This document shows, piece after piece, positions 7,579 through 40,312 of a DNA stretch of 64,000 nucleotides. Source of the DNA: Labyrinthula sp. Ha. Lineage: Eukaryota > Sar > Bigyra > Labyrinthulida > Labyrinthulaceae. The stretch is taken from contig JAALGZ010000010.1 in the NCBI GenBank assembly GCA_015227615.1, positions 558,001-622,000 of the forward strand, in the 5' to 3' direction. Every line of letters starts with the position of its first letter. Positions within the stretch are counted from its first letter, which is position 1. A program made the translations under genes and the position numbers. A model generated the notes under the pieces. The model worked only from the letters and a program-made list of their open reading frames with translations. It ran no database searches and had not been told where the DNA came from.

Positions 7579-8250
7579 CTACACTACCCATGTCTCCACG
7601 CCATTGCTCCATATGGAATCCTTGAGTCCATATCCCATAGTCGAGACATCTGTAGTGTAGGACAGGTCGATTCCCAATGCAATCCAGCCAGCCTTGACAG
7701 TTCCATTTCTCGCGAAGAGCTCCAAAAAATGTCCCTTCTTGGACAACTTTTGTATTCTGCGCTTCACCTCATCTGGCTTCGTACTGTTAGGTTGTCTTGG
7801 ACTTTCGATTACATCGCTGCCGAAAAAGAGCATTCTCTGCGTCACTGGCGTCAATCCCCGCCTAAAAACCAGTAACTCCTCTACAGCACTATGGATCAAA
7901 CTACCCGTGTTCATTTGTAGCTTTCCTCGTCTTGATCTCTTGATCCAGTAAATCGACTGCTTGTATTCAAATCCTTGTTCTTGACCCCACTGCATCGCTA
8001 CCTTCCTAGTGGATTTAGCCACCCAATACATGAAATATTCATTCTTAACTAGTAGCTTCGGCGGAATACTTCTAATCTCGGCATCTGCTAGAGTCCTGTA
8101 TTTCACTGCAAAACCCCTAACTGGATCTTTCTGGGATATCTTTCAGGGTGGGTCAGCCAATACAACATCGAGTGTTCCTCCGAAATTTCTTATCACCTGG
8201 AGCAGCATCTTTGGCCAGTTTACCTTCCTCGTGTCTCAGCTCAGAACTCA
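7579..8250 (-). pseudogene. MT-A70 methyltransferase module of the old element
   Basis: This is the 3' end of the old element. Family features visible include the DPP catalytic region near 8155, followed by a DPVRG...Y.TL.D.EI segment that is also present in the young element. Further on are KSTRKVAMQWGQEQGFEYKQ and IYWIKRS (the 'GF....I.W.K' strand), SAVEELLVFRRG (the 'H..E..L.G..G' segment), and at the end KPDEVKRRIQKL with GHFLELFARNGTVKAGW, which matches the MT-A70 signature 'KPDE.Y..IE......LELFAR....GW..LG'. MT-A70 enzymes (METTL3/14, METTL4, AMT/MTA1) transfer methyl groups from SAM to N6 of adenine in RNA or DNA. Here it is part of a broken fossil. Confidence 0.8.
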
Positions 8251-18898: not shown

Positions 18899-19471
18899 AG
18901 GAATAATATTAATCTACGCTGGCGTAATTTACACAACTCTACCATTAGTACCAATAAATTAATTTCTCAAAATCACTAATCAAAAACCAACAATTAAAAT
19001 TAAAATTACAAATGGCTATCAAAAACCTGAACAAGCTCAGGAATTGATCAAGTGAACAAGAAAAGAAACAGTTACTGATTCATGGGAAGCTGACATACCT
19101 CTAGCACAGGATTTAAATATAAAAACCCTGAAAAAGGGCTAGGTTTAGCTCTTGGTAAATAGCTAACCCTAGACCCACACGCATCTACAATAGCAGATGT
19201 ATAACACTTGCTAGAGGTTTTGGTTGTTTTTTTTTATTCTTTTAGATTTTGGATGGGGATTTCAGTTTTTTAAGAGGAAAGGTGTATTGGGGGTGGGCAT
19301 AGGGATCGGGATTGAAAAATTTTTGGAAAAAGATATGTGTATTGTGGACTTATTAATTGGGGGTGGGCCATGGGATCAGGATGTTCTTATTTTATAGGGC
19401 CATTGGATGAAAAGTTTCAAAACTGATCTGCTAAACGGCCTTCAACATATATATACACAAGCTAGCTCACG

Positions 19472-19621
19472 ATGCAAAAAATAATTCCGTTGTTGATCAT
19501 GGGATATATGGTTTTCAATTCAGTACACTCTATTTGCTCTTACGAAGATGTGTTTGAAGGGTTTCTACTTAATTACAATGAAGATGTTGATCGAGGTTAT
19601 TGTGAAGTGAGTACTGTATAG
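19472..19621 (+). CDS. 49-aa signal-peptide-like ORF inside MULE copy 1
   Basis: ATG to TAG, 49 codons, on the strand opposite to the transposase and convergent with it. The N-terminus is MQKIIPLLIMGYMVFNSVHS: a charged residue, then a hydrophobic run, then small polar residues, as in a secretory signal peptide. It is followed by an acidic, aromatic tail with two cysteines (SYEDVFEGFLLNYNEDVDRG, then YCEVSTV). The same frame, same length, is kept in MULE copy 2 (40,240-40,091) with only three residue changes by my reading. The end lies in a repeated GTGAGTACTG word that looks like a splice donor, so the true product may be longer. The convergent layout recalls mudrA/mudrB of maize MuDR, but no sequence relation to MURB is claimed. 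Confidence 0.4.
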   Translation: MQKIIPLLIMGYMVFNSVHSICSYEDVFEGFLLNYNEDVDRGYCEVSTV

Positions 19622-19693
19622 GAAAACTTCGCATGAGAAAATGGAGTTGCTAGAAGAAAATGTTATAGGTGAGTACTGTATAGGAAAACCTAC

Positions 19694-21766
19694 TTAAGTG
19701 TTAAAGTTCACGCGACTTCGACTTATACCTACACGCTCTTTTCTTCGCATCTTCCTCTTTCTCGTTGATAAGATTGTTGATCCAGAATGTTGAGAGAGTG
19801 ACATATCCACATCGGAAAAGTCACAATCTGCATTTTGTTTCAACACATCTCTCATTTTTATGACAGTTGCATATGCTTTTCGCCACCCCTAATCTGTACT
19901 ATGTTCAGCTTCTTTACATAGGTTCCTGCATGCTGTCTTGAGCATGGAAAATCTTACACCAGGTTTCTTTGGAACTTTCAAACCCTTAAAGCCAGGAACT
20001 TTCACATTGAAATTTAAAACTCCCTCTTCAGGAGTTGTTGCTCGTCCAAGTTCATTTAATGCAACTTCATGAAGAGGATGTTCCTGAAAGCGCCATCTAG
20101 GCAGCAGGTTTACCTTGTCAATATATTTTCTTTTTAATCTGACACAGATCCTAGCATAGTGACGACAAGGTAGTTTCAAATTAGTCCATGTTGAGAAACT
20201 GCGTTCAGGATGAACCCAGCCATTGATATCTCTCATTTCAACATTATATAATCTAGAAACATCATTCTTTGTTTCTGAAACAATATATGTCCGGTCTCCA
20301 TTATCAGCAACAATGAAGCATCCAGTTATTTTCTTAATTTCACTGGTCAACATCTTATCAAGCTCCTCAGAAATATCTTCCCCTTTTGAAATTAGTTTTT
20401 TCAACTTTTTTAATGTAGAGTTTGTATAATCAACAACTTGTTTTTCATGGAAACTGATTAGCTGATCAATTGTCCAACTTTTTTGTTTAGATGAAAGTTG
20501 ACCACTACCCTTAAATTTAGTATGAAACCCTTCAACATGTTGAGTAGAAACGTGACCAAATGTTACTTTTCTTTTTATATATGTCCAACATATATTTTCT
20601 TTCTGTACTTTAATATTTTTTAGGAACTGTTGTTGTTCGTGCTCTGGAAAATCAAAGCTTAGCTTCTGAAGATGGGCATCCAGTTTTTCATTTGTATGAA
20701 AGTCCTCCCTCGCAGCCTGGTTGACACGATCAAGGAGGTCACTTACATAGGGATCTCTTAATCCCTTTGCCCCAGATGAAAAAGATGCAGCAAAATGTTT
20801 AACACATCTCACATGTTCAGCTCCAAGAAGTTTCGCTGCTGTTGCTAAGGCCAAGGAACCATCGCTCATCATAACTTCTGTGTGTTCAATACCAAGATTC
20901 TTTAACCCTCTGATCACTTGCTCATGGTTTTCGGTTTGCATTAATGTACAAGCGAAATTAACAGTTTACATGAAGGAATCCACTCCCACGGGGAACATTG
21001 CTACAAAAATGTAGCGTGACAAACCCTGGGTGATGTCAATTTGTATTGACTCCGAATAAATATTTTTTAGTTTTACTTGTAGTTGTTCTCGAAATGTTAA
21101 ACTTTTTAGCCTAGGTCTTCCTTCTGTGTCATTTGAGTAGCAAAGTTCAAAGTTTCCTCCATTACTTAGACATCTCTTACCTGTTTTAATTAAAATTTGA
21201 ATATTGGTATCTTGTAGCTCTCTTCTTTCTTCTCTAGCCTTTTTAATTGACGCAAAATTAAAGTTTTGTCAAAGTAAATCCCTGGAAATTTGCGATGAGG
21301 TGCCACTTCCACTGAAGTTAAGGGAGTGTCAGCAACTCCAAGGTACTTTAACATTCTTAATTCAGCTGGTTTTAAGTCTGAGAGAAACTTTCTTTCATTT
21401 TTCTTTACTTGTACTTCATGTCCTGTGTATTCTAAGCATTTAACTTGGAAAATGTATTTTCCTAATTTGAGATCAAACTTAAAGTTTAACTCAAAAGTAC
21501 AATTTTTAGAAGACGCACATTTTAATTTACATCTACGCAACATTTTTTTTACTAAATCCAAAGATTCTTTTGGTTTCATCTTCAGAAAAGCTGTGGGAGG
21601 ACTGTTTTTTAACTCTAAATCGGTTAGCACTTACCTTCTTCACAACTTCAACCATCTCTTCTGGTGTAGAGCCTCTGTAACTGATCCAACTGTCATTTGT
21701 TTCGCTTTGGTTTGGTTGTTCAAGGTCTACTTCCTCTTTGGTAGGGGCAGAAACGTGTGTTTCTAT
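19694..21766 (-). pseudogene. MULE transposase, copy 1 (inactive)
   Basis: Mutator-like transposase read from right to left. Order: a short N-terminal exon, a probable 22-nt intron (21,613-21,634), then a Cys/His-rich DNA-binding region (MLRRCKLKCASSKNCTFELN ... TGHEVQVKKNERKF) like the FAR1/WRKY-GCM1 zinc fingers of MULEs. Next is the DDE core: D in SIQIDITQGLSRY (near 21,030), D in VMMSDGSLALATAAKL with the following CVKHF, and E in HVEGFHTKFK. A SWIM-like zinc finger comes last. Decay: the start ATG reads ATA, an in-frame stop lies between the first two catalytic aspartates (FM*TVNF), two SWIM cysteines are replaced (ERSFSTWTN instead of ECSCSTWTN in copy 2), and an early stop comes after AEHSTD. 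It therefore cannot make an intact enzyme. Confidence 0.8.
21613..21634 (-). other. Probable 22-nt intron in MULE transposase, copy 1
   Basis: On the minus strand the segment starts GTAAGT, contains a branch-point-like GCTAAC, and ends TTTAGAG. Removing these 22 nt joins ...EEMVEVVKK in phase 0 to LKNSPPTAFLKMKPKESLDL and the zinc-finger part, which are otherwise in different frames. The identical segment occurs in copy 2 (38,075-38,096). Confidence 0.5.
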
Positions 21767-21971
21767 ACTTGTAATTTTTTGCTTGTTGTTTTCATAAATT
21801 TTGGGCTCAGAGAATTGTGAATTGAAGTTCTGCTATGAAGCTTCTGTTAAGTTTTATGGAATTCCACCAAAAAACACTACCGGTGCGCCATTTCCTTATC
21901 CACTTAAAACCCCCTACAATTCCTAACGGAAAAGTGGTGTATTATACACCAGCGTACAAAAACCCGGTTCC

Positions 21972-26139: not shown

Positions 26140-26171
26140 AATTATATATTTAAACAGACAAAATAAAAAAA
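26140..26171. promoter_or_regulatory. 32-bp divergent spacer, bidirectional promoter
   Basis: Only 32 bp separate the two divergent start codons. It is nearly pure A/T with a TATATATT-like core (attatatattt). Both core promoters and both 5' UTRs must fit in this spacer or overlap the opposite coding sequence. Confidence 0.5.
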
Positions 26172-29100
26172 ATGAAAAAAGTAAGAAGAAAAAAAAGTAA
26201 GAAATTAAAAGAACTTTTTACACGATATGGTAGTATAAAAAAGAAAAAAAGAATAGAAACTTCTTTTACTCAATCAAATGTATTAAAGAAAGAATCTTGT
26301 ACGCAGGCTAATGTAGATTTAAATACAAAACCTTTTGAACTTAATTTCGAAGAAATTGAAAAAGATAAAAATGAAAATGAAGATCATCAAATTTATTGGA
26401 GAAAAGTAAAAGATAAAAAAACAAATGATGAATGGTTTTATAATATAAAAACAAAACAAATTCAATGGGAAAAACCAAGTGTTCTAGAAACAAAAGGTAT
26501 AATTACAAAAAGACATTTGGATGAACTTTCTGTACTTTCTGAAGATATTGTTTCTTTATTTGAAGAACCAAAGAAAGAAAAAAGACTTTTTACAACATCA
26601 TCAGCACCAGAATCAATTTTAAATTTAGAAAAGATAAATTCTTTTTTAAATGTTGATCCAGTTTTAGATTTTTTTCATGAAGAAGAAAAGATAGAAGATA
26701 AGAAAAAAGAAGATATTCCTTTTTTTCTTCCAGATGGATCAAGTACTATAAAACTACGGGAAAAAGTAAATCAAGTACTTAATCAAGGATTTCAACCTCG
26801 AAGAAGAAAGAGAAAAATACTTTCACCTATTCAAACAAAAAGAAAACAAAATAATAAACAAAAACAATTTCCTTCTGTTCGTGATTTTCCTTATAAAGGT
26901 ATTTCAGTAAATTCTATTACACTTAATCAACCAATAATTAAACAAGATATTAATTCAAAAGGTTGTTTTCTTTGCTGGTGCGCTGGTGAAGATCAGATTA
27001 AACGTTGTGAAGTTCATTATCAGGAGAAAAAGAATATTGAAAAAGAATCTTTACTTGTTTGTACAAATTGGAAAATGAATACTTTAATGAGAAAATATAG
27101 AAGTGAAGAAAGAATAGAAATATTTAATCAAAAAGAAAATACAGTAAAATTTGATCCTAAGAAGAAAAATTTTATAGAAAGTGTTGAATATGGTCATATA
27201 ATATATAGATTAACTAAAGAAGGAATTGATAAAAAATGTTTTCGTATTAAATGTAGATTAAAGTTTACATCTTGGGTATATAGCGTTTTAGAAGAGATAA
27301 GGATGAAGAAGATAAAAACAAAAGATGGTTTTAAACAAGGAAAAATGCTAAGTTTAAGAAAAACTTTGAGAAATAGAAAATTGATACAAGATTTAAAGTT
27401 TCAAACAAAAGAATTAGAACCAGAAATTGGAAAAACTGAAATTGTAAAAGTGGATGAAGGAAAGGGAAAAAGTATAAAGTTAGGATATATTGAAAAAGAA
27501 GGTAAAAAAGAAAAGTTTGTGAGGGGGATATTATTTGATTCTAAAGAAATGGAAGTTTATGATAGAAATTTATTTTTGAAAAAGATAGATTGGAATGAGA
27601 TTGAGTTTCCAGATGGTTCTATTATATCAAAAATATCAGAAAGAGAGTTTAGTTTCAAAGAGACTTCAGATGAAGAACAAAAATATAAATTTATTGGAAA
27701 GTTTTCTTCTATAAAAAAATGTTCTCATTTACAAAGATTTTCTATAAAAGTATTATTAGAAACAAAAATAAAACCACTTTATGATTATTATTTATGTGGA
27801 GAAACAACTTTATACTCATCAAAAAAATTTAAAGAAAATACAAAAGAAAGATTACTCAAATTTATTAATAATTTCTTGAATGAAGTTAAACCTTTATATC
27901 TTTGTACATCAACTATTAAATATATGAAATATATTTCTATATCTTCAGAAAAAATTATTTCTCCATATATTCAATCATATATATTAGATATAAAAAAAAC
28001 ATATTCAACAATAAATTTTACACCAACAACATCTGCATTAACAAAACCAAAGCCAATAACACTTCCTTCAAAAATAGTTCATGCAGCTAAAAATTATCCA
28101 TTCTTTCCTTGTACAACTGAAAAACCAACACCTTCTGATTTGTGGTCACTTTTCTCGAATATGGATGAAAAAAAAGGAAGTTTAAAAGTATTTAATGCAA
28201 GAAAATTTAGTTTGAGGATTAAGTTGGTTGAAGGATTAGGAAGAAGAAAATGGGATGTAAATATAATAGAAGATATAAAGAAAGAAAAAGAAAAAGAAGA
28301 AGAGAGAATGAAATGGGAAAAAGAATATGGAGGAAAGGTAGTTGAATTACAAACAAGTACAAAGAAAAAATGGTATTTTGATGTAGAAAAGAAAAAAGCA
28401 AAATGGAAGAAACCAGTTGTTCATGAAGTGAAAGAAGAGAAAAAAGAACTTTTAGAAAAGGTGGAAAAAATAGAAAATGTAGAACAAGCTGTTGAGGAAA
28501 AAGAACAAGAATGTATTATAGAACCAGAAATACTTGAAAAGATATCAAATGCTTTAGATAATATGTTTAAAAGAAAAGGAGAAAGTGGAAATATATTAAA
28601 ATTTGGAGTTGGTTTGGGATTAGGTTTAGGAATAAGTCAAAAAGATATATCTCCAGTAAAGAAAAAAATAGAAGAAAAAATAAAAGTTGATACAGAAGAA
28701 AATATAAAACCAATAGATAAAAAACAAGATTCCGAAAATATATTTGAAAAGAAGGAAACTCCAGATGAAGAAGATGATGAACTTAAAGAAATATTTTCAT
28801 CTATTGAATATGAATATGAAGAAACAAACACAATACCAAACTTTAATATATTTACTCATCCACCTATTTGTATTCCGAATCTAGTAGAAAAAATAAAAGC
28901 ACCAAGTTTAGTTGAACTTACTCAAGAAACTTTAAATACACTTAATTCTATATCATCAACAACAGAATTTCTTACAGAAACACTTATTCCTAAAACATCT
29001 TCTAGTTTAGAAAAAATATCAACTTGGTGTAAAGGAAGAAATAATTTAGATATTATTTTATTAAATAATATACAAGAAGTTGATGAAATAATAAGTGGAG

Positions 29101-29558
29101 TATCAAAAATAGGAAAAAGTTTTACTCAAGTATATGGAGAGAAAAAAGAAGATACTTATATTGAAGATTTAGACTATATATTTAGTTTAGCTAGACATGG
29201 AAAAGTTGATGAATTGGATAAGTTTTTGGATATTTATAGTGATAAATTATTATCAGATGTTGATAATTTAGAAAAAGGAAAAAGATATTTACATATAGAT
29301 AGTAAAGATGGAACAGGAAATAGTTTGTTGATAATAGGTGCTCAAAATAATAGTAAAAAAATAATAAAGTTATGTTTGAGAAGAGGATGTGATATAAATA
29401 TACAAAATAGTCAAGGTAATACAGCACTTCATTATGCAAAGAGTTATAAATTTGAAGAGTTGTTTGAATATTTGTTAAAAAAAGGTGCTGATGATGGAAT
29501 TATTAATAATGAAGGGTTGACATGTTATGAAGGATTAAGATTGGAGGACTTATTGTGA
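26172..29558 (+). CDS. Large WW-domain and ankyrin-repeat protein
   Basis: 1128 residues with no intron. A WW domain lies at about residues 75-103 (YWRKVKDKKTNDEWFYNIKT, then KQIQWEKP), with both Trp, the aromatic pair and the Pro in place. A second WW-like unit is at about 712-747 (KKKWYFDVEKKKAKWKKP). A Cys-rich patch, GCFLCWCAGEDQIKRCEVHY, is near residue 263. Residues about 990-1125 form ankyrin repeats (NSLLIIGAQNNSKKIIKLCL, GNTALHYAKSYKFEELFEYL). WW domains bind proline-rich peptides and ankyrin repeats bind proteins, so this is a scaffold of unknown pathway. Between the domains it is Lys/Glu-rich and partly disordered. It shares a 32-bp spacer with the preceding gene. The young retrotransposon begins 84 bp after its stop, so its 3' UTR or terminator may be disturbed. 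Overall family not recognised. Confidence 0.85.
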   Translation: MKKVRRKKSKKLKELFTRYGSIKKKKRIETSFTQSNVLKKESCTQANVDLNTKPFELNFEEIEKDKNENEDHQIYWRKVKDKKTNDEWFYNIKTKQIQWEKPSVLETKGIITKRHLDELSVLSEDIVSLFEEPKKEKRLFTTSSAPESILNLEKINSFLNVDPVLDFFHEEEKIEDKKKEDIPFFLPDGSSTIKLREKVNQVLNQGFQPRRRKRKILSPIQTKRKQNNKQKQFPSVRDFPYKGISVNSITLNQPIIKQDINSKGCFLCWCAGEDQIKRCEVHYQEKKNIEKESLLVCTNWKMNTLMRKYRSEERIEIFNQKENTVKFDPKKKNFIESVEYGHIIYRLTKEGIDKKCFRIKCRLKFTSWVYSVLEEIRMKKIKTKDGFKQGKMLSLRKTLRNRKLIQDLKFQTKELEPEIGKTEIVKVDEGKGKSIKLGYIEKEGKKEKFVRGILFDSKEMEVYDRNLFLKKIDWNEIEFPDGSIISKISEREFSFKETSDEEQKYKFIGKFSSIKKCSHLQRFSIKVLLETKIKPLYDYYLCGETTLYSSKKFKENTKERLLKFINNFLNEVKPLYLCTSTIKYMKYISISSEKIISPYIQSYILDIKKTYSTINFTPTTSALTKPKPITLPSKIVHAAKNYPFFPCTTEKPTPSDLWSLFSNMDEKKGSLKVFNARKFSLRIKLVEGLGRRKWDVNIIEDIKKEKEKEEERMKWEKEYGGKVVELQTSTKKKWYFDVEKKKAKWKKPVVHEVKEEKKELLEKVEKIENVEQAVEEKEQECIIEPEILEKISNALDNMFKRKGESGNILKFGVGLGLGLGISQKDISPVKKKIEEKIKVDTEENIKPIDKKQDSENIFEKKETPDEEDDELKEIFSSIEYEYEETNTIPNFNIFTHPPICIPNLVEKIKAPSLVELTQETLNTLNSISSTTEFLTETLIPKTSSSLEKISTWCKGRNNLDIILLNNIQEVDEIISGVSKIGKSFTQVYGEKKEDTYIEDLDYIFSLARHGKVDELDKFLDIYSDKLLSDVDNLEKGKRYLHIDSKDGTGNSLLIIGAQNNSKKIIKLCLRRGCDINIQNSQGNTALHYAKSYKFEELFEYLLKKGADDGIINNEGLTCYEGLRLEDLL

Positions 29559-29637: not shown

Positions 29638-29641
29638 CTAT
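29638..29641. repeat. Target-site duplication, left (ctat)
   Basis: ctat lies directly before the 5' LTR and again directly after the 3' LTR (37,591-37,594). A 4-bp duplication fits an integrase-mediated insertion (Ty3/gypsy elements make 4-6 bp). Confidence 0.6.
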
Positions 29642-30405
29642 TGTTGTGATTTTATGTGAAATATCTTATGGTTTAATGTAGTTGCGATATATGTTTTGTT
29701 TCAGCTGTGTCTCAGGTGGTTGATTCCAAAAATGCTTGTCTTTGATGTTCTTGATGTTACTAAGAAATAAAGATGTGAAAGAAACTTTGGTAAATGTTGA
29801 TATACAAGTGAAATTTTGGTATAATATGAATTTATGAGATGATACGAAGATATTGTGAAGTTCTTGGTTTATTCTGAAGTGTTTTCGAAGAGTTACAGTT
29901 GATTTGGTCAAATCGAGAACCTAATTTACAGTCTTTTCTCTTTCGTATTATGTGATAAAATTCGCCCGTGACGAGATGAAAGGGTGGTTTGTTCATCGAT
30001 GTTTTTCTCCTATGAATTTACATTTGGTGACATTTGTTGATATAAATTAAAAACGAGATATCGTTAGTTACGATTGAGGGATGACATGGTCATTTGGGAA
30101 TTTTGGTATAGGTTTTCTGCATAATATGGTGTTGGAACTGAGTTGAAATATACAATATTCAGGAAAGTTGAAAGTAGTATTTGACATATATTTTCCGTTT
30201 TTTACTAACTGTTAAGCGATATAAAAAAAAGAGAAAAAGAGTTTTTTAGTGAATTATAAAAGGAAGTTTATTGAGTTTATATCTAACGCGAAACCCTATT
30301 TTATTGGATCTGAGGTCTTTTTCAAGGTCCAAGTTGTGTTTGTGATTGGTTTTTTCTTCCGCGGACGTCTTAAGAGTAAATTACAGGAAGACGATAAACG
30401 CAATA
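29642..30405 (+). repeat. 5' LTR (764 bp)
   Basis: Starts TGTTGTG and ends acgcaata. It matches 36,827-37,590 over its whole length, with one difference near the left end. In Ty3/gypsy elements the LTR carries the promoter and polyadenylation signal; I could not place them by eye. Confidence 0.9.
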
Positions 30406-30548
30406 TTGCAATATTGTATACTTAGGGAAGAACCATCATATATTTTTTTATTGGGTTTTAAAGAAGGTTTTATTAATAAGCTTACCTGCTATTCAAGATT
30501 TACGGCAATTTATTTTCAAGAGAAGCTACTTTGGAGTGGGAAGTAGAT

Positions 30549-33500
30549 ATGAGTGAAAGAGCTCCTAACATGGCCCAGGTCATGAAAATGTTTGAGGAGA
30601 TTTTATTGAAGCAACAAGAAGAATCGCAGAGGAGAATGGAAGCGATGCTAAATAACTTTGCAGGAATGCAAGCAGAGATATCTATCTTGGAAAGTTTTAC
30701 ACTCCGTAGCATGGAGAAGTTTATTTACCAATATGAAAGAATTAACGAAGATCAGCGAAAGTATGTTATGCTGAGGCAGAAATTAGGGAAGCTAGTTTAC
30801 AAGCAAATGGAATGTTTAGGTTGTTTGGGTTCTAATGATGAAATAATTAATGCAATCAAGAAGAAGATAGTAAGATTGAAGGTCGAAGATGCCGGAAGCG
30901 CTGAAGGCCTTATTAGGAAACAGGTCGTTTTTAAGAAGGAGATGGACGAGGAAGAGGCAGTCGAAGTTCTTTTCCAAGAAGTAGAAGAAGTTCTCTCTTT
31001 ACTACCTCCTGAATCAAGACGGAAGCCAAGGAAGATCGCTAAGGCTATATTTGATTTGTTACCCAAACACATCTGGGTACGCTATGATGATTTAAATTTG
31101 AAACCAGAACTAGAGGAAGCTGATCGCCAAGAGTTAAAGAAATATATTTTATCGTGCATACCTCCAAGACATGTGAGAAAGGAGTTTAAAGTTTTTTGTG
31201 CGGATAAGATTAAATCCACAAAGCAACACCCGGTTGCATCGCGGAAGCAGAAGTATGAGATAAAGTCTGCGCAGATGCCGAAAGATCAGGGTCAGTTGCC
31301 TAAAGGAAACGAGCTGCTGTGTGAACACGACTGGATTTACGGGCACACGCAGAGATTCTGTTATGAAAAGAAGGCAGGAAAGCCTGCACTACCTTATCCT
31401 GGTTTAGATGAAATGCAGAGAAGGTTAACAAGATATAAAGAAAGGAAGAAGGAGAAGTTGTATGAGATGACCAAGTCTGCGTCGATAAAGAAAGAAGAGG
31501 ATAAAGTGGAAGATATGGCTAAGGAGTATTTTGGAAGTAAGATGTTTAGAGCTGTTGGTGGATGTCCAAATAAGTTTTTTGGTGGAAAGAAGGATACTGA
31601 AATAGGAAGTGTGAAACTTAATGAGGTGAAGAGTGTTATAAATTCATCTAAAGTTTTCCACGACGATGGTTTTTATAAAATAAAAGCGGTGAAGGATAAC
31701 GCTTTTGTTGATTCATATTTATCTGGAAAGAAACTTAAATGTTTGTTGGACTCAGGAGCATTTAGAAGTGCACTTAACAGCAAGCATAAGAAACTATGTG
31801 ATGGTATTAAGCAGTTGAAAAGGCCGGTGAGGGTACAGGCCGCGGGGGGTGTTATATACCCCGTACATGAAGTGGGATTTATTGGAAAAATGTGGGTGGA
31901 AAGTGATAAACCCGAGTTGGAACCACTTGTTTTTGAAGAGGTTGAAGTCCTAATCCTGGAAGTGCCGGAATGGGATGACCTGATAATAGGTAACGACGTG
32001 CTGTGTCGTTACGGGTTGGACCCCCTTAGCGCCATGGAAAGTAAGATGAAGGTTAAGGGGAAGACAAAAACTAGTTTTGCTAAATGGTTTGTTAGCAACG
32101 TTGGTGTGGAAGATGAAGCTGCGAGGGATATTGAGATAAAAGAAATATATCCGAGCAACGAGAAAAACATTCCTCCTCAAGTTTTTGGTTGGGATTGGCC
32201 CAACGAGGAGGAGTTTTTAGACATTGAAAACATTGATTTAGGAGCAGGTGCAGAGGTTACTGATATTGAAAAAGACAATGAAAGAATGAGGAATATTATT
32301 CGAGAGAAGTTGGAGAATATACCAGTGGTCAACTTTGATGATTCTTTAGCGTGGAAACGGAAGTTCACAGGGTTATTTTTGCAACATGCTCAGACCTTTG
32401 GGGATTCAAATAGTTATACGAAGCTGTCGAAGATTACCCCGATAAGATGTGATATAATTGAAGGGGCTCAAGTTGGCGTTCAGAAACAACTACCCCTAGG
32501 CCAAGAGCAAGAGGATTTCTTACACGCTCGGATCAATCATATGGTTAAAGCTGGTATTATTCAAGTGAATAAAAATCCCACAACAGCAATGAGTGTGCTG
32601 GTTGTGCCCAAGAAGGGACCTAAACGTTTTAGGTTGGTGGTCGATTTTCGACCTTTAAACAGAGTTACGAAGAAAGTTTCAAATACGCTACCAAAAATTG
32701 AGCTGCAATTGGATCGCGTGAAAGGAAATGCGCATTTTTGTGGATTTGACTTACTTTCTGGCTTTGATTATTTAGCTTGCAAAGAGCAAGCTGGTGAGTT
32801 TTTCACGTTTACAACCCCATGGGGGGTATCATATTCTTTCCTAGGGGCACCACAGGGGTGGTGCAATACCCCTAGTTTATTTTCTATGCGCCAAATTGAG
32901 GAAGTTTTAATGCCTTCAGGCCTCTGGCCTAGGAAGGCCATGCAATGGATCGACGACAGTATTATCATGGGGGGTACGATGGAAGAACTCTATGATAATA
33001 CGTCTAGGTTTTTAACACAAATTCAGAAGAAGGAATTGCGTTTAAATGTGGAGAAATGTGAGTTGGTAGCAGATAAGTTGACGTTTTGCGGTCGTGAAGT
33101 GAATAAGGATGGTTGGAGCTTTGACAACAGTTATGCTAAAGGGTTGTTGGAGAGAGTAAAACCTACTTATTTACACGAACTTGCTCAACTTATTTATACC
33201 GCGAACTTCATTTCAGCGACTATTCCGGGGTTCTCAAAAATAAGAAAACTGTTACTTGGGAGTCACAAAATTACAGGTAAAATGAAGAATTTGGAGAGAA
33301 GAAGAGTACCCATTGAATGGACTGAAGAAATGGAGAGGACTTACAAAGAAATGATGCAAGCGTTGAAAGACTCTATGAGTTATTCGCTTGGTTTTTATGA
33401 TCCAAAAGAAGACGTGTATTTATTCACAGATGCAAGTGAAAGATTTTACAGTTTATATATTTCGCAAACTTCTGAGAAGGTTGATAGATTGAATCCATTC

Positions 33501-36270
33501 CTAAGCAATTTCAGAGTAATTGCTATGAGCTCTGGAAGTTTTGTAGGATCAGCATTGAATTGGCACATTTCGTGCAAAGAGTTATTTCCTGTTTTAATGG
33601 CAGTCAAGAAGTTTCCGTACTATTTAAAGTACAATGCTAAAGAGAAAGTGTTATTTACTGACCATAAGAATTTGGTTCAGATATTAAATCCAAGAGAAGC
33701 GAAGTTAAAGTCCCATACTTCTAGATTAAATCGTTGGGCAATGGAGTTTATGGAATTAAACCTGGTAGCTTGTCATTTAGACGGCTACCAGAATATTCCA
33801 GCTGATTGTTTATCGAGGTGGTTGAACCCTAAATACCATAAAACTGAAGCTGATTTAGAAGTTATTTGTAAAGCTATTTCTAGAGCTAACAGTCGCGATA
33901 CAGAGTTAGATTTTTGGAGAGCGGTTGATATGCTTCATGTCTCACCTAGACATCCAGCAAGTTTGAACCTAGCGGATGTCGGCTGGGAGGTGATTGACGA
34001 AGTTTTATTATTTAACTTACAGAAAAGGTATTTAGGAGAAAGCCTTGAAGAATTGAAGAAAGAAAAGGAAAAAATATTTGTCAAAAAGTCTATGATCCCT
34101 GTGCTTATTTTACATGCACATATATGGTTTAACCATGGATCGAAAGCAAACGAAGTTAAACTGCTGAAGGATAGTTATTATTTTGAAGCAGAAATATGGG
34201 CTCTAGTTGTTGAAGCTCATAAGGTCTTCAGACGACAATGCATGCATTGTCAGAAGCCTAGTTTAGTTGTTCGCCGAACATTTAATATCACCGAATGGGG
34301 CAGCCGTTCTGGTGAGGTTTTATTAGCGGACTTTTTATACATCAACTCAACTGGTTGGATCTTAACACTGGTCGATAGTTTGACTAGGACAACGATATTG
34401 AGGTACTGTAAAAAAGCTACAGCCGATAACTTGGTCTCCATCCTTTGGGATTGGAATAGTCATTTTCAACTAAGAGATGATTTTATTTTAGTGACCGATA
34501 AAGGATCACATTTTACCTCCAACGTTGTGGAGAAGTTTTTGAGAGAAAGTGGATGTAGCCACAAGTTTACTGCTACATACGTTTCATATACTGCTGGAGC
34601 TGTAGAAGTTCAAAATCGGCAGATTTTAAGACATTTGAGAAGCATAGTAAGCGAGTTCGGTTTAGGAAATAATGGATGGCCGGATGTACTTCCAATGGTC
34701 CAGGCCTTCATTAACCAAACTCCGCTTACTTGTAGAGGTTTACGAATGTCTCCATTGGAGTTAATGATTGGAGTAGAAGGAAAGAATAATAAGTTAGGTA
34801 GCGTTTACAAAAACATGGAGAAGAAGGATTTTCAGAGATTAAAGGAAGCAGCTATTAAGTTGAGAGAAGATCTTCATAAACTTCAGGAAAAGGCTAGTAG
34901 TTGTGGTTTAGAATATCGCATGAAAGCTAACCTCAGAAGAAATGCTAAGTTGACACCCATATTCTTTCGGCCTGGTGAGTTTGTTTGGATGTCAGAGAAG
35001 GAAGTAAATTCTGGAAATAAAGACAAAGTGAAGCCAAGATGGTGTGGTCCCTACCAGATTAGGGAGACGATTAGCGAGCACCTTTACAAGTTGGAAGATT
35101 TAAATGGTAATGTCAAGGTTAGACATTCCACTTTGTTAATACCATTTGCGCCAGTTGGGTTTTTACCTAACCCGGCAACTAAGTTAGTTTACCGAATGAA
35201 CCGTGGTGATTTAGAGGTTGAGAAGTTTGTAAGATTAATCAAGGATGTTGAAGGAAACCTAAGTTTTGAGGTCAAGTGGCGTGGATTTCCTACAAGTGAC
35301 AACACGTTTGAACCAGTGACCATTATGTTCGAGGATCTTCCTTCACTTGTTAACCAGTTTATTCGTGACAATCCAGGTGTGTTATCGAAAGAGTTGTATC
35401 AATATTTGAAAGTAATGTATCCAGATGCTTTCGAAGAAGAAGTAAGTGGTAGTTTGAACTCTCTCTATGCTATGAGTGAGAAAGAGGAATCGTCTTATGT
35501 TAAGAAATTGATTTATGGGAAGGTTGTTATAAATGAATTGGGGCAGTGGAACTATCTTAACTGGTCCACCTATGAAGTTGAAGCGTTGAGATTTGGTGTT
35601 TTGAATCATGGTTTTGGAGATTTTATTGCTCTGAAAAAATATGTACCTGGAAAGAATAAGCAACAAGTTTACACGAAGTTACAGAAACTTGTTGGAAGAC
35701 AAAGCCTGAAAGGTTACCACGGGCTTTATTTAGATGTTGATGTTTTACGAGTTGATAACTTGCGGATGACAGGAAAAGAATATTGTGTAAGAAGAATACC
35801 TAGAGATTCAAAGCAAGTTAGGATGTTTGAGGTTTTGATTAAATGGAAATATGCAGCTCAACATATTAAAAACTTCAAGAAAGCTAAGGAAAAGAAATTG
35901 AAAGTGTTTAATTTAACAAATACGGAGGGAGTTAAGATGATGTTAGAATATGTTAAACAAGAAGATAGTAGTTTGGATGATTGTTTTCCGAAGTTTGTAG
36001 GAGGAAAAGAGAATTTTCTATTATTTCTGAAACAACTTTGGAGTGATCTAAGAAAGAGAGAAAAAAATATTGAAGGAAAGTTAGAAGAAGTAAAAGAAAG
36101 TTTGTGTGAGAATTATATTTTTCCAATGAGAAATGCAGAATATGAAGTAAGAAAGTGCGATACACCAAACTTAGTTAAAGTGGATTTTAAGGAATTGAAC
36201 TGTGTGGCCTATATTTGGAACACAGAAGGTGTTGGGAGGTTTTACAAAGGTGATGTTAGATGTTTTTTAA
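30549..36270 (+). CDS. Gag-Pol polyprotein region of the young element, to the SANT domain and linker
   Basis: Gag, Pol and the extra domains run together without a separate gag frame. From the first ATG at 30,549: coiled-coil-rich Gag (to about 31.3 kb), a knuckle-like C/H motif (CEHDWIYGHTQRFCYEKK), retropepsin LLDSGAFRSALNSK (about 31,745), reverse transcriptase (FRLVVDFRPLN near 32,630; active site QWIDDSI near 32,945), and RNase H (FTDASERF near 33,422; FTDHKNL near 33,655). Integrase follows: HH-CC zinc finger near 34.11-34.26 kb, then catalytic residues in LLADFLY, VTDKGSHF and VEVQNRQ. Next are a chromodomain at 35.21-35.37 kb (FVRLIKDVEGNLSFEVKWRG) and a SANT/Myb-like domain at 35.55-35.70 kb (WSTYEVEALRFGVLNHGFGD ... 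YVPGKNKQQVYTKLQKL). A charged helical linker leads to the methyltransferase. Retroelement material, near-whole. Confidence 0.9.
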
Positions 36271-36803
36271 CTGAAACGCAGAAAAAGTTTGATGTTTTGA
36301 TTGTAGATCCCCCATGGAGAGTGTTCTCCGGGGATCCTGTTAGAGGACCAGCTGTGTCTTACTCTACTTTATCTGATGATGAGATCTTGAAGTTGAATTT
36401 GAAAGCAGTGATGCATAACACCCTCTGTTGCGTTTGAGTTATTAAAGGAAAGGAAAATATTGTTCAAGAATTATTTCATCGAAACGGAATTCGCATGATG
36501 GGACGTTTTATTTGGATAAAAACAAATGGACACAATAAAATATTATCCACACTCGGTAACCTTACAATGCGTTGCACGGAGGAGTGCATTTTAGGGGTCA
36601 AAGGTGAGCTACCGAAGGTTTTAGTTACAAGATCATTGGGCAAAGAAATATTATATGGTAAAAGAACTGGTAACGCCCAAAAACCAGTGGAATTATATGA
36701 GTTGTTAGAGAACAGTTGTCAGAAGGAAACTCGTTTTTTGGAACTATTTGGACGGAAAAATAATTTGAGGAAGAATTGGTTCACTGTTGGAAATGAGTTA
36801 TAA
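36271..36803 (+). CDS. MT-A70 N6-adenine methyltransferase module of the young element
   Basis: This is the C-terminal coding module, just before the polypurine tract. It contains the family hallmarks: the catalytic motif FDVLIVDPPW (DPPW, binds SAM and the target adenine), the YSTLSDDEI segment ('Y.TMS..EI'), GRFIWIKTN ('W.K.N'), RCTEECILGVKGEL ('H..E.CL.G.KG'), and AQKPVELYELLEN followed by FLELFGRKNNLRKNWFTVGN, matching 'KP.E.Y.LIE...... LELFGR..N.R.GW...GN'. Known MT-A70 proteins methylate mRNA (METTL3/14), snRNA (METTL4) or DNA (ciliate AMT1/MTA1). Which substrate applies here cannot be told from sequence. The stop TAA is at 36,801-36,803. The region looks near-whole, with about one break. 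Confidence 0.9.
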
Positions 36804-36815
36804 CCACCTGATGCT

Positions 36816-36826
36816 GAAAGGGGCAG
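36816..36826 (+). promoter_or_regulatory. Polypurine tract
   Basis: gaaaggggcag directly precedes the TG that starts the 3' LTR. This is the usual position of the plus-strand primer for LTR retrotransposons. Confidence 0.75.
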
Positions 36827-37590
36827 TGTTGTGGTTTTATGTGAAATATCTTATGGTTTAATGTAGTTGCGATATATGTTTTGTTTCAGCTGTGTCTCAG
36901 GTGGTTGATTCCAAAAATGCTTGTCTTTGATGTTCTTGATGTTACTAAGAAATAAAGATGTGAAAGAAACTTTGGTAAATGTTGATATACAAGTGAAATT
37001 TTGGTATAATATGAATTTATGAGATGATACGAAGATATTGTGAAGTTCTTGGTTTATTCTGAAGTGTTTTCGAAGAGTTACAGTTGATTTGGTCAAATCG
37101 AGAACCTAATTTACAGTCTTTTCTCTTTCGTATTATGTGATAAAATTCGCCCGTGACGAGATGAAAGGGTGGTTTGTTCATCGATGTTTTTCTCCTATGA
37201 ATTTACATTTGGTGACATTTGTTGATATAAATTAAAAACGAGATATCGTTAGTTACGATTGAGGGATGACATGGTCATTTGGGAATTTTGGTATAGGTTT
37301 TCTGCATAATATGGTGTTGGAACTGAGTTGAAATATACAATATTCAGGAAAGTTGAAAGTAGTATTTGACATATATTTTCCGTTTTTTACTAACTGTTAA
37401 GCGATATAAAAAAAAGAGAAAAAGAGTTTTTTAGTGAATTATAAAAGGAAGTTTATTGAGTTTATATCTAACGCGAAACCCTATTTTATTGGATCTGAGG
37501 TCTTTTTCAAGGTCCAAGTTGTGTTTGTGATTGGTTTTTTCTTCCGCGGACGTCTTAAGAGTAAATTACAGGAAGACGATAAACGCAATA
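36827..37590 (+). repeat. 3' LTR (764 bp)
   Basis: Starts TGTTGTG after the polypurine tract, ends acgcaata, and is followed by the target duplication ctat. It matches the 5' LTR at all but one position by my reading. Confidence 0.9.
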
Positions 37591-37736
37591 CTATATATAT
37601 TCGAATTATATTGATTTATATGAATTTAGCTTTTGTGAATGTAAAGAAAAGCTGAATATGTTTTTATCACTTAGAATTTTTTTCAAGAGCATGTAGAAAA
37701 TGGTGTTCTCCATTTGTGATACCAAGCTAAGCATAA

Positions 37737-37782
37737 GGGAACCGGGTTTTTATACGCCAGCGTATAATACGCCACTTTTCCG
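37737..37782 (+). repeat. Left terminal inverted repeat of MULE copy 2
   Basis: Begins gggaaccgggtttttatacg. It pairs with the right end at 41,167-41,211. A short internal palindrome (tacgccagcgta) sits within it. Confidence 0.65.
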
Positions 37783-37942
37783 TTAGGGATTGTAGGGGGT
37801 TTTTAGGCGATAAGGAAATGGCGTACCGGTAGTGATTTTTGGTGGAATTCCATAAAACTTAACAGAAGCTTAATAGCAGAACTTCAATTCATAATTCTCT
37901 GATCCCGAAACTTATGAAAACAACAACTAAAAAATTACAAGT

Positions 37943-40018
37943 ATGGAAACACACCTTTCTGCCCCTATCAAAGAGGAAGTAGACCTTGAACAACCAAACC
38001 AAAGCGAAACAAATGACAGTTGGATCAGTTACAGAGGCTCTACACCAGAAGAGATGGTTGAAGTTGTGAAGAAGGTAAGTGCTAACCGATTTAGAGTTAA
38101 AAAACAGTCCTCCCACAGCTTTTCTGAAGATTAAACCAAAATAATCTTTGGATTTAGTAAAAAAATGTTGCGTAGGTGTAGATTAAAATGTGTGTCTTCT
38201 AAAAATTGTACTTTTGAGTTAAAATTTAAGTTTGATCTCAAATTAGGAAAATACATTTTCCAAGTAAAATGCTTAGAACACACAGGACATGAAGCACAAG
38301 TAAAGAAAAATGAAAGAAAGTTTCTCTCAGACTTAAAACCAGCTGAATTAAGAATGTTAAAGTACCTTGGAGTTGCTGACACTCCCTTAACTTCAGTGGA
38401 AGTGGCACCTCATAGCAAATTTCCAGGGATTTACTTTGACAAAGAGTTACTAAAGCGTCAATTAAAGAAGGCTAGAGAAGAAGGAAGAGATTCAGAAGAT
38501 ACTAATATTCAAATTTTAATTAAAACAGGTAAAAGATGTCTAAGTAATGGAGGAAACTTTGAACTCTACTACTCAAGTGACACAGAAGGATGACCTAGGC
38601 TAAAAGGTTTAACATTTCAAGAACAACTACAAGTAAAATTAAAATTTTTTTTCTGAGTCAATACAAATTGACACCACCCACGGTTTGTCACGCTAAAATT
38701 TTGTAACTATGTTCCCCGTGGGAGTTGATTGTTTCATGAAAACTGTTAATTTTGGTTGTACATTAATGCAAACCGAAAACCATGAGCAAGTCATCAGAGG
38801 ATTGAAGGATCTTGGTCTTGAACACACAGAAGTTATGATGAGCGATGGTTCCTTGGCCTTAGCAAAATCAGCAAAACTTCTTGGAGCTGAACATGTGAGA
38901 TGTGTTAAACATTTTGCTGCATCTTTTTCATCTGGGGCAAAGGGATTAAGAGATCCCTATGTAAGTGACCTCCTTGATCGTGTCAACCAGGCCGTGAGGG
39001 AGGACATTCATACAAATGAAAAACTGGATGCCCATCTTCAGAAGCTAAGCTTTGATTTTCCAGAGCACGAACAACAACAGTTCCTAAAAAATATTAAAGT
39101 ACAGAAAGAAAATATATGTTGGACATATATAAAAAGAAAAGTAACATTTGGTCACGTTTCTACTCAACGTGTTGAAGGGTTTCATACTAAATTTAAGTGT
39201 AGTGGTCAACTTTTATCTAAACAAAAAAGTTGGACAATTGATCAATTAATTAGTTTTCATGAAAACAAGTTGTTAATTACACAAATTCTACATTGAAAAA
39301 GTTGAAAAAACTAATTTCCAAAGGGAAAGATATTTCTGAGGAGGTTGATAAGATGTTGATCAGTGAAATTAAGAAAGTGACTAGATGCTACGTTGTTGTT
39401 GTTGCTGACAATGGAGACCGGACCTATATTGTTTCAGAAACAGAGAATGATGTTTCTAGATTATATAATGTTGAAGTAAGAGATATCAATGGCTGGGTTC
39501 ATCCTGAATGCAGTTGCTCAACATGGACTAATTTGAAACTACCTTGTCGTCACTATGCTAGGATCTGCGTCAGATTAAAAAGAAAATATATGGACAAGGT
39601 AAACCTTTTGCCTAGATGGCGTTTTCAACAACATCCTCTTCATGAAGTTGCATTAAAAGAACTTGGACGAGCAACAACTCCTGAAGAGGGAGTTTTAAAT
39701 TTCAATGTCAAAGTTCCTGGCTTTAAAGATTTGAAAGTTCCAAAGAAACCAGGTGTAAGATTTTCCATGCTCAAGACAGCATGCAGGGACCTATGTGAAG
39801 AAGCTCAACATAGTACAGATGAGGCGTGGCGAAAAGCATATGCAACTGTCATAAAAATGAGAGATGTGTTGAAACAAAATGCAGATTGTGACTTTTCCGA
39901 TGTGGATATGTCACTCTCTCAACATTCTGGATCAACAATCTTATCAACGAGAAAGAGGAAGATGCGAAGAAAAGAGCGTGTAGGTATAAGTCGAAGTCGC
40001 GTGAACTTTAACACTTAA
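37943..40018 (+). pseudogene. MULE transposase, copy 2 (inactive)
   Basis: The first exon begins METHLSAPIKEEVDLEQPNQ and ends at a probable 22-nt intron (38,075-38,096). The zinc-finger region is RCRLKCVSSKNCTFELKFKF with TGHEAQVKKNERKF. The DDE core includes D in VMMSDGSLALAKSAKL, CVKHFAASFSS and E in RVEGFHTKFK. The C-terminal SWIM zinc finger is intact (ECSCSTWTNLKLPCRHYARI, pattern CxC-x9-CxH). Decay: a stop after LKIKPK, a one-base loss in an A-run near 38,160 (7 A against 8 in copy 1), changes near the first catalytic Asp (tgacaccacc), and a frame change near 39,265-39,300 (HENKLLITQILH against HEKQVVDYTNSTL in copy 1). The two copies carry different lesions, so they decayed independently. 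Confidence 0.85.
38075..38096 (+). other. Probable 22-nt intron in MULE transposase, copy 2
   Basis: GTAAGT donor, GCTAAC branch-point-like word and TTTAGAG acceptor, as in copy 1. It starts exactly in phase 0 after EEMVEVVKK. Confidence 0.5.
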
Positions 40019-40022
40019 GTAG

Positions 40023-40105
40023 GTTTTCCTATACAGTACTCACCTATAACATTTTCTTCTAGCAACTCCATTTTCTCATGCGAAGTTTTCCTATACAGTA
40101 CTCAC
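40023..40105. repeat. Direct repeat in MULE (gttttcctatacagtactca, two units)
   Basis: Units at 40,023-40,043 and 40,085-40,105 here, and on the opposite strand at 19,607-19,627 and 19,669-19,689 in copy 1. Read on the strand of the small ORF each unit begins GTGAGTACTG, a splice-donor-like word, and the first one covers that ORF's end. Confidence 0.7.
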
Positions 40106-40240
40106 TTCACAATAACCTCGATCAACATCTTCATTGTAATTAAGTAGAAACCCTTCAAACACATCTTCGTAAGAGCAAATAGAGTGTACTGAATTGAAAA
40201 CCATGTACCTCATGATCAACCATGGAATTATTTTATGCAT
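40091..40240 (-). CDS. 49-aa signal-peptide-like ORF inside MULE copy 2
   Basis: The counterpart of the frame at 19,472-19,621. It starts MHKIIPWLIMRYMVFNSVHS and has an identical remainder (ICSYEDVFEGFLLNYNEDVD, RGYCEVSTV). It differs from copy 1 at residues 2, 7 and 11 only. The hydrophobic start looks like a signal peptide. It is convergent with the transposase, whose stop lies about 70 bp away. The frame is open here even though both transposase genes have decayed. Confidence 0.4.
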   Translation of the reverse strand: MHKIIPWLIMRYMVFNSVHSICSYEDVFEGFLLNYNEDVDRGYCEVSTV

Positions 40241-40312
40241 CGTGGGATAGTAAATGTGTGTAAGAGCTGCTGAATGATCAACCACGGAATTATTTTATGC
40301 ATCGTGGGATAG
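40213..40312. repeat. Tandem 38-bp duplication in MULE copy 2
   Basis: tgatcaacca[t/c]ggaat...gtgggatag occurs at 40,213-40,250 and 40,275-40,312 with one mismatch. Copy 1 has only one unit. It covers the 5' end of the small ORF. Confidence 0.75.

Follow-up and report, generated by a model that had tools for sequence, protein, structure and literature searches.

The 64,000-nucleotide stretch analysed here, hereafter the window, covers positions 558,001 to 622,000 of contig JAALGZ010000010.1 in the Labyrinthula sp. Ha assembly GCA_015227615.1. Between 29642 and 37590 it contains a Ty3/Gypsy retrotransposon bounded by long terminal repeats (LTRs), in which reverse transcriptase (RT), RNase H (RH), integrase (IN) and a chromodomain follow one another in that order and an MT-A70 methyltransferase (MT) module comes last (Table 1). 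An initial annotation of this DNA had described a Ty3/gypsy element ending in MT-A70, and the description is borne out by the order of the Pfam domains and by the second half of the module (36438–36800), which alone matches PF05063 at 3e-19. The element was said to be young; its LTRs differ by one mismatch and CTAT is found at both ends. As the module lies inside the LTRs, ahead of the purine-rich stretch, it is part of the mobile unit, as had been proposed. The DPPW motif is encoded where it had been placed, at about 36,305, and the module also has the KP.E.Y and LELFGR segments. The domain order is as described, but an in-frame TGA within MT-A70 had been overlooked.

The LTR pair, target-site duplication, order of protease, RT, RH and IN, and Ty3-like Pol are those of a Ty3/Gypsy element, the protease match being weak and, in the closely related copy L029 (6.9e-4), likewise below the Pfam cut-off. 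Ty3 Gag-Pol was the best match in the PDB (2.4e-24), with RT to integrase aligned in one stretch, and the chromodomain after the integrase is a chromovirus trait. A DIRS element with a Dam methylase is excluded, as an rve integrase and MT-A70 are found in place of a tyrosine recombinase and Dam. The gag region was assigned by position, with no Pfam gag match in the 1985-aa frame. No familiar primer binding site of the tRNA type was recognised by eye downstream of the 5' LTR, where the junction at 30395–30420 holds GCAATATTGCAATATTG.

Table 1. Features of the retrotransposon in the window (positions are those of the window)
Feature	Positions	Strand	Details
Target-site duplication, left copy, CTAT	29638–29641	.	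4 bp
5' LTR	29642–30405	+	764 bp, TGTTGTG start, CAATA end; 763/764 identical to 3' LTR
gag-protease-RT-RNase H-IN-chromodomain-p1-MT-A70 polyprotein frame	30480–36437	+	1985 aa, early TGA within MT-A70
Aspartyl protease-like domain (LLDSGA), upstream of RT as usual	31716–32006	+	Pfam 0.0034, below cut-off
Reverse transcriptase (RVT_1)	32604–33095	+	Pfam 1.4e-17
RNase H (RT_RNaseH)	33399–33755	+	Pfam 4.6e-15
Integrase core (rve)	34305–34580	+	Pfam 1.2e-8
Chromodomain (Chromo), C-terminal to integrase	35214–35363	+	Pfam 8e-7
p1-like Myb/homeobox-type DNA-binding domain of the AMT1 N6-methyladenine complex	35526–35816	+	Translation; eight-element profile; L029 copy
MT-A70 (AMT1-like) methyltransferase module, interrupted in the window copy	36177–36800	+	
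Catalytic DPPW motif	36306–36317	+	
In-frame TGA within MT-A70	36435–36437	+	Window copy only, among 7 places at 99–100% identity
Remainder of MT-A70 frame, up to TAA at 36801–36803	36438–36803	+	
Purine-rich stretch GAAAGGGGCAG, polypurine-tract-like, directly 5' of 3' LTR	36816–36826	+	Seen in sequence
3' LTR	36827–37590	+	
Target-site duplication, right copy, CTAT	37591–37594	.	

When the open module of L029 was used as the query, seven places in the genome matched at 99–100% identity, the window's among them, which excludes the confinement of the module to one copy. Six of the seven are open and the stop is found in the window's alone. L029 is 99.0% identical to the window element over 7.4 kb and has a single 2107-aa frame that runs through MT-A70. 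A further copy, L031, has lost approximately 1.8 kb, which by position covers the integrase core, the chromodomain and the p1-like domain described below, but still has RT and MT-A70 within a single open frame of 1411 aa. Loss of the module was considered for a near-identical RT copy in contig C96 and rejected, as this copy is without the module because its contig ends before the module would start.

Related elements were sorted into groups: W, the window clade (L029–L033 and L041); A, of the L009 type; B, of the L024/L026 type; C (L122 and L123); D (L124); and E, known by coordinates only. As to which METHYLTRANSFERASE the elements carry, the best PDB match of the window-type module was AMT1/MTA1 of Tetrahymena (7.6e-36), ahead of METTL3 (1.9e-21), METTL14 (3.5e-15) and 7cv6 (9.1e-5), an entry listed as Methyltransferase-like protein 2 that we take to be METTL4-type. 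AMT1 is preferred over METTL3 by about 47 bits. Group A modules also matched AMT1 best (1.4e-38, METTL3 3.2e-31). By score, the window-clade enzyme is AMT1-like, closer to AMT1 than to METTL3, METTL14 or METTL4. In a 24-row tree the window-clade MT joins the AMT1 of the host and of Tetrahymena with support of 97/94 and adjoins the host AMT1 (90/88, not starred). The host sequence is that of L016, a lone gene that matched AMT1 at 3.7e-73 and METTL3 at 8.9e-36 and is most likely the host's own AMT1. The placement among known MT-A70 families proposed earlier was thus obtained for AMT1 as against METTL3, in trees made up without METTL14 and METTL4 rows. A lone METTL3-like enzyme is rejected for the window clade by the relative scores and by what lies in front of the module.

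The segment between the chromodomain and MT-A70 can be aligned among members of the window clade, group A and group B. A profile of eight elements retrieved p1 of the Tetrahymena DNA N6-methyladenine (6mA) complex from the PDB at 3.4e-24, with SNAPC4 next at 2e-5, and the L029 segment alone matched p1 at 2.6e-5, the next best being 0.84. The Myb/homeobox-like domain of p1 and a C-terminal extension are present, the window clade being without the last part seen in groups A and B. MTA1 itself has no nucleic-acid-binding domain, and the homeobox-like p1 and p2 are needed for its activity, according to the available text of the report on the complex (PMC9852454); p1 and p2 are described as co-occurring exclusively with AMT1 (PMC12695648). 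With Tetrahymena p1 as the query, 122 of the 150 scored places in the genome are followed 295–992 bp on by MT-A70, where random placement would give 0.54. The window family is missing from the 150 because only the best candidates were scored; there, p1 is identified by the segment alignment, the eight-element profile, the L029 search and the translation. The two best places (G000:C1:1284470-1284766 and C100:136012-136305; 43 and 46% identity to Tetrahymena p1) lie more than 8 kb from any RT, RNase H or MT match, and are likely to be host p1 genes. Among the remaining 148 places, the 26 outside the 122 have no MT-A70 following, and some of these have RT or RNase H upstream. Small pieces of groups C and D include p1-like sequence too.

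Forty-nine stretches of the 50.8-Mb genome, some overlapping, were read letter by letter, and the remainder is known from match tables. The PF05063 profile search that had been suggested gave 354 candidates, of which the best 150 were scored, all over the cut-off, and the window module was matched together with its DPPW motif. Combined with two module queries (best 150 of 432 and best 150 of 408), these amount to 227 MT-A70 places. A scored RT or RNase H lies 1.5–4.8 kb upstream on the same strand in 155 of them and a scored p1 0.2–2.0 kb upstream in 127, so that at least 185 have one or other partner and 97 have both. The 42 with neither include the lone AMT1 of L016 and element copies such as the deleted L031. 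Because only the best candidates were scored, these element counts are lower bounds. The count called for at the outset reveals a module kept across many families. Viewed from the other end, MT-A70 was found downstream of 86/92 window-type RT, 80/91 L009-type RT and 91/150 PF17917 matches, and the 59 PF17917 matches with no scored MT-A70 may include Gypsy lineages devoid of the module. All but one of the 20 best MT-A70 loci have RT, RH, IN, chromodomain and MT in order within an LTR pair (truncated in some cases where the stretch ends), the exception being L016. As LTR identity is 99% or more in seven of these 19 and in L030, L031 and L033, several lineages were mobile recently. A chance match or an accident of one copy is rejected by the profile scores, the seven near-identical places and the number of element-linked places.

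A viral or bacterial source found no support. The 80 viral loci retained out of 339 relatives had no window-type domain except MT at 1e-4. A contig scan with one narrow pattern matched 11 stretches, none of which proved to be a relative by tblastn, and says little.

The MT module is under purifying selection. Median ratios of nonsynonymous to synonymous substitution (dN/dS), calculated after exclusion of pairs with dS of 0.02 or less or at saturation, are 0.21 in the window clade (8 pairs), 0.15 in group A (41 pairs) and 0.27 in group B (5 pairs) for MT. For the spacer that contains p1 they are 0.16 (4 pairs), 0.14 (39) and 0.14 (3), respectively. RT gave 0.08 in group A (42 pairs) and 0.11 in group B (5 pairs), the window clade leaving no usable pair. 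Some group A pairs at low dS are as high as 0.55 for MT and 1.07 for IN. In Tetrahymena, D209 is catalytic, activity being lost in MTA1 D209A, and R357, N360, E371, N370 and S332 are S-adenosylmethionine (SAM) contacts (PMC9852454). All four window-clade members compared keep D209 and the P, P and W that complete its motif, along with R357, N360 and E371, and two of the four keep N370. DPPW is likewise found in the four group B rows, in two group C modules and in one group D module.

The position of the protease also varies among groups. In L009 and L026, of groups A and B, an LLDSGA motif (weak Pfam match, 0.007) separates p1 from MT, and none was found in the N-terminal 720 aa of L026; the window family has the motif before RT. 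It is as if the protease of groups A and B had been relocated within the polyprotein.

The sequence establishes the order of the domains, the mobility of the unit as a whole, its many copies, its conservation and the catalytic motif. The most likely explanation is that the module is a captured DNA 6mA writer, predicted to act on the element's own DNA. In full, a group of chromodomain Ty3/Gypsy elements would have captured a DNA N6-adenine methyltransferase, AMT1 with p1 fused in front, and would use it to mark their own new copies, which we regard as fairly probable. As part of the polyprotein, and probably still near integrase and chromodomain, p1-AMT1 would enter the nucleus with the new copy. 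There p1 would hold the DNA and the enzyme, perhaps paired with host AMT7 and p2, would write 6mA at ApT sites of the freshly made element, on or after integration. Host AMT1 could maintain the mark afterwards, and the genome does hold a lone AMT1 and, not linked to elements, a pair of p1-like places. What the element would gain is permissive chromatin: because 6mA marks expressed genes in the permissive chromatin of AMT1-bearing eukaryotes, a new copy would pass as an active gene. The available text of a survey of AMT1 species describes 6mA as marking expressed genes, with no enrichment of transposable elements (PMC12695648). We also put forward, tentatively, that the fused p1-AMT1 seeds the host's active-gene mark and host AMT1 maintains it, a form of counter-silencing in which the DPAW lineage (group A, below) would be an inactive partner or decoy.

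Several observations weigh against a self-marking 6mA writer. The window copy is broken by the stop within its methyltransferase, and S332 is kept in only one of the four window-clade members. All 14 main group A modules (L009–L015, L017–L022 and L027) have DPAW instead of DPPW, and L011 has an additional relic with NPAW; at 371 the nine group A rows compared carry D, and at 370 either L or a stop, so that some of the modules may be inactive. Group B modules end in WWTFSGPYEWKEE and are without the GNEL stretch; in the residue comparison the group B and METTL3 rows are cut before 370/371, which makes the gaps there uninformative. Group B also matches METTL3 slightly better than AMT1 (5.3e-32 and 3.3e-31). 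In a wider tree (22 rows, with groups C and D added) support for the AMT1 side falls to 81/83, not starred. Structure fails to separate AMT1 from METTL3: the AlphaFold model made for the last 468 aa of L029, of moderate quality (predicted local distance difference test 61.5), retrieved METTL3 first with Foldseek (2.8e-17, MTA1 5.4e-17). Neither an AMT7-like nor a p2-like domain could be recognised in the element; the Tetrahymena complex requires p2 as well as p1 (PMC9852454). Finally, the 6mA activity of the module is itself a prediction from its sequence.

The elements may have acquired their modules in several independent captures, of an AMT1-like enzyme in the window clade and of a different MT-A70 in groups A and B, a possibility that we consider doubtful. 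A single clade of all element MT domains was indeed rejected (p-AU 0.0198 with 24 rows and 0.0192 with 22 rows), but long branches weaken this test. Moreover, p1 occupies the same place in every sampled group, and in the p1 tree the element sequences fall on one side of a branch, opposite host and Tetrahymena p1 (89/91, not starred). As the p1-MT order is common to all sampled groups and the p1 tree agrees, one capture is favoured and appears more likely than several. For the window clade, several captures would in any case be consistent with the explanation favoured here.

It is unlikely that the module acts in trans, altering the host methylome or competing for the partners of host AMT1, and not in self-marking. 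The altered catalytic motif of group A is reminiscent of inactive partner subunits, among them MTA9 with its NALW (PMC9852454), and so many copies could sway the host. However, the polyprotein includes both a chromodomain and a p1 that binds DNA, which would favour action near the element, and the window clade retains DPPW and most SAM contacts. This retention also bears on the idea that catalysis by the module is unimportant and that it is kept for its contacts, as a part of the integrase that binds DNA or serves in targeting. Such a role would suit a chromodomain and a p1 that both bind chromatin or DNA, as well as the DPAW of group A and the missing GNEL end of group B, but the purifying selection on MT and the DPPW of groups C and D speak against it, and we think it quite improbable. 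Least credible, and in our opinion very improbable, is a METTL3-like enzyme that writes m6A on the element's RNA and affects its export, stability or packaging: the MT-A70 family includes METTL3, which group B slightly prefers, and RNA methylation matters to some elements, since an orchid Gypsy carries an m6A RNA demethylase (PMC9289625), but p1 is a DNA-binding subunit of a DNA enzyme, the window-type module prefers AMT1, and MT-A70 was the sole match in the C-terminal part of L029 at E up to 5, with no CCCH zinc finger. The initial annotation had the element marking its own DNA or RNA; because the enzyme is AMT1-like and p1 precedes it, in the window family 6mA on DNA is much likelier than m6A on RNA.

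Capture of other methyltransferases by retrotransposons has been published before. Among the literature matches listed (titles and beginnings of abstracts of open-licence articles, a scope outside which preprints fall), none reported MT-A70 or AMT1 in an LTR retrotransposon. KnitGypsy-Dnmt3, SymbioDIRS-Dnmt3 and SymbioLINE-Dnmt are likewise retrotransposons with a captured DNA methyltransferase whose key residues are conserved; in the first two the enzyme is in Pol, as here, and purifying selection was reported for KnitGypsy, as we find for the module (PMC5890265). Theirs, however, are cytosine enzymes of an unrelated family, and the available text of that report describes no DNA-binding partner subunit (PMC5890265). 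DIRS elements with a Dam-like methylase also encode an N6-adenine methylase, but of the bacterial Dam type and alongside a tyrosine recombinase, whereas an MT-A70/AMT1 enzyme accompanies an rve integrase in the LTR element described here (PMC5890265, PMC6338049). In the AMT1/MTA1-MTA9-p1-p2 DNA 6mA complex, the catalytic subunit and p1 are homologous to those of the element; that complex consists of four separate host proteins, whereas the element fuses two of the parts and has no recognised MTA9 or p2 (PMC9852454). The orchid Gypsy with AlkB is another Ty3/Gypsy element with an adenine-methylation enzyme, but AlkB is an RNA eraser in an additional open reading frame and the module here is a DNA-type writer in Pol (PMC9289625). 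Ectocarpus Sola1, with ParB and an N4C/N6A methyltransferase, shares with the Labyrinthula elements the possession of its own DNA-binding and methyltransferase domains, and differs in being a DNA transposon with prokaryote-type domains in a separate accessory gene (PMC12477816).

The DNA methyltransferases known so far from retrotransposons are 5-methylcytosine (Dnmt) and Dam-type enzymes, and here the kit is that of the AMT1-6mA pathway, the MT-A70 families of which have been called relatively static (PMC12695648). Both p1 and AMT1 are kept in one polypeptide, in which neither p2 nor AMT7 was recognised. With at least 185 element-linked places in several diverged lineages, this 50.8-Mb genome would offer a direct, natural test of whether 6mA keeps DNA active.

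Elsewhere in the window, a second MT-A70 piece on the minus strand (7663–8172) has a TGA at its DPP motif. As it groups with group C element modules (94/93, not starred), it is probably a relic of another such element. An inverted repeat pair of 2.5 kb (19462–21971 and 37738–40250) is 94.4% identical, and one of its arms begins 147 bp past the retrotransposon. By eye, the frames in this pair resemble a MULE (Mutator-like element)-type transposase; the two that were scanned against Pfam gave no match. On the other side, a 1134-aa open frame (26154–29558), which has ankyrin repeats in its C-terminal part and matches WW weakly, lies 83 bp before the left LTR.

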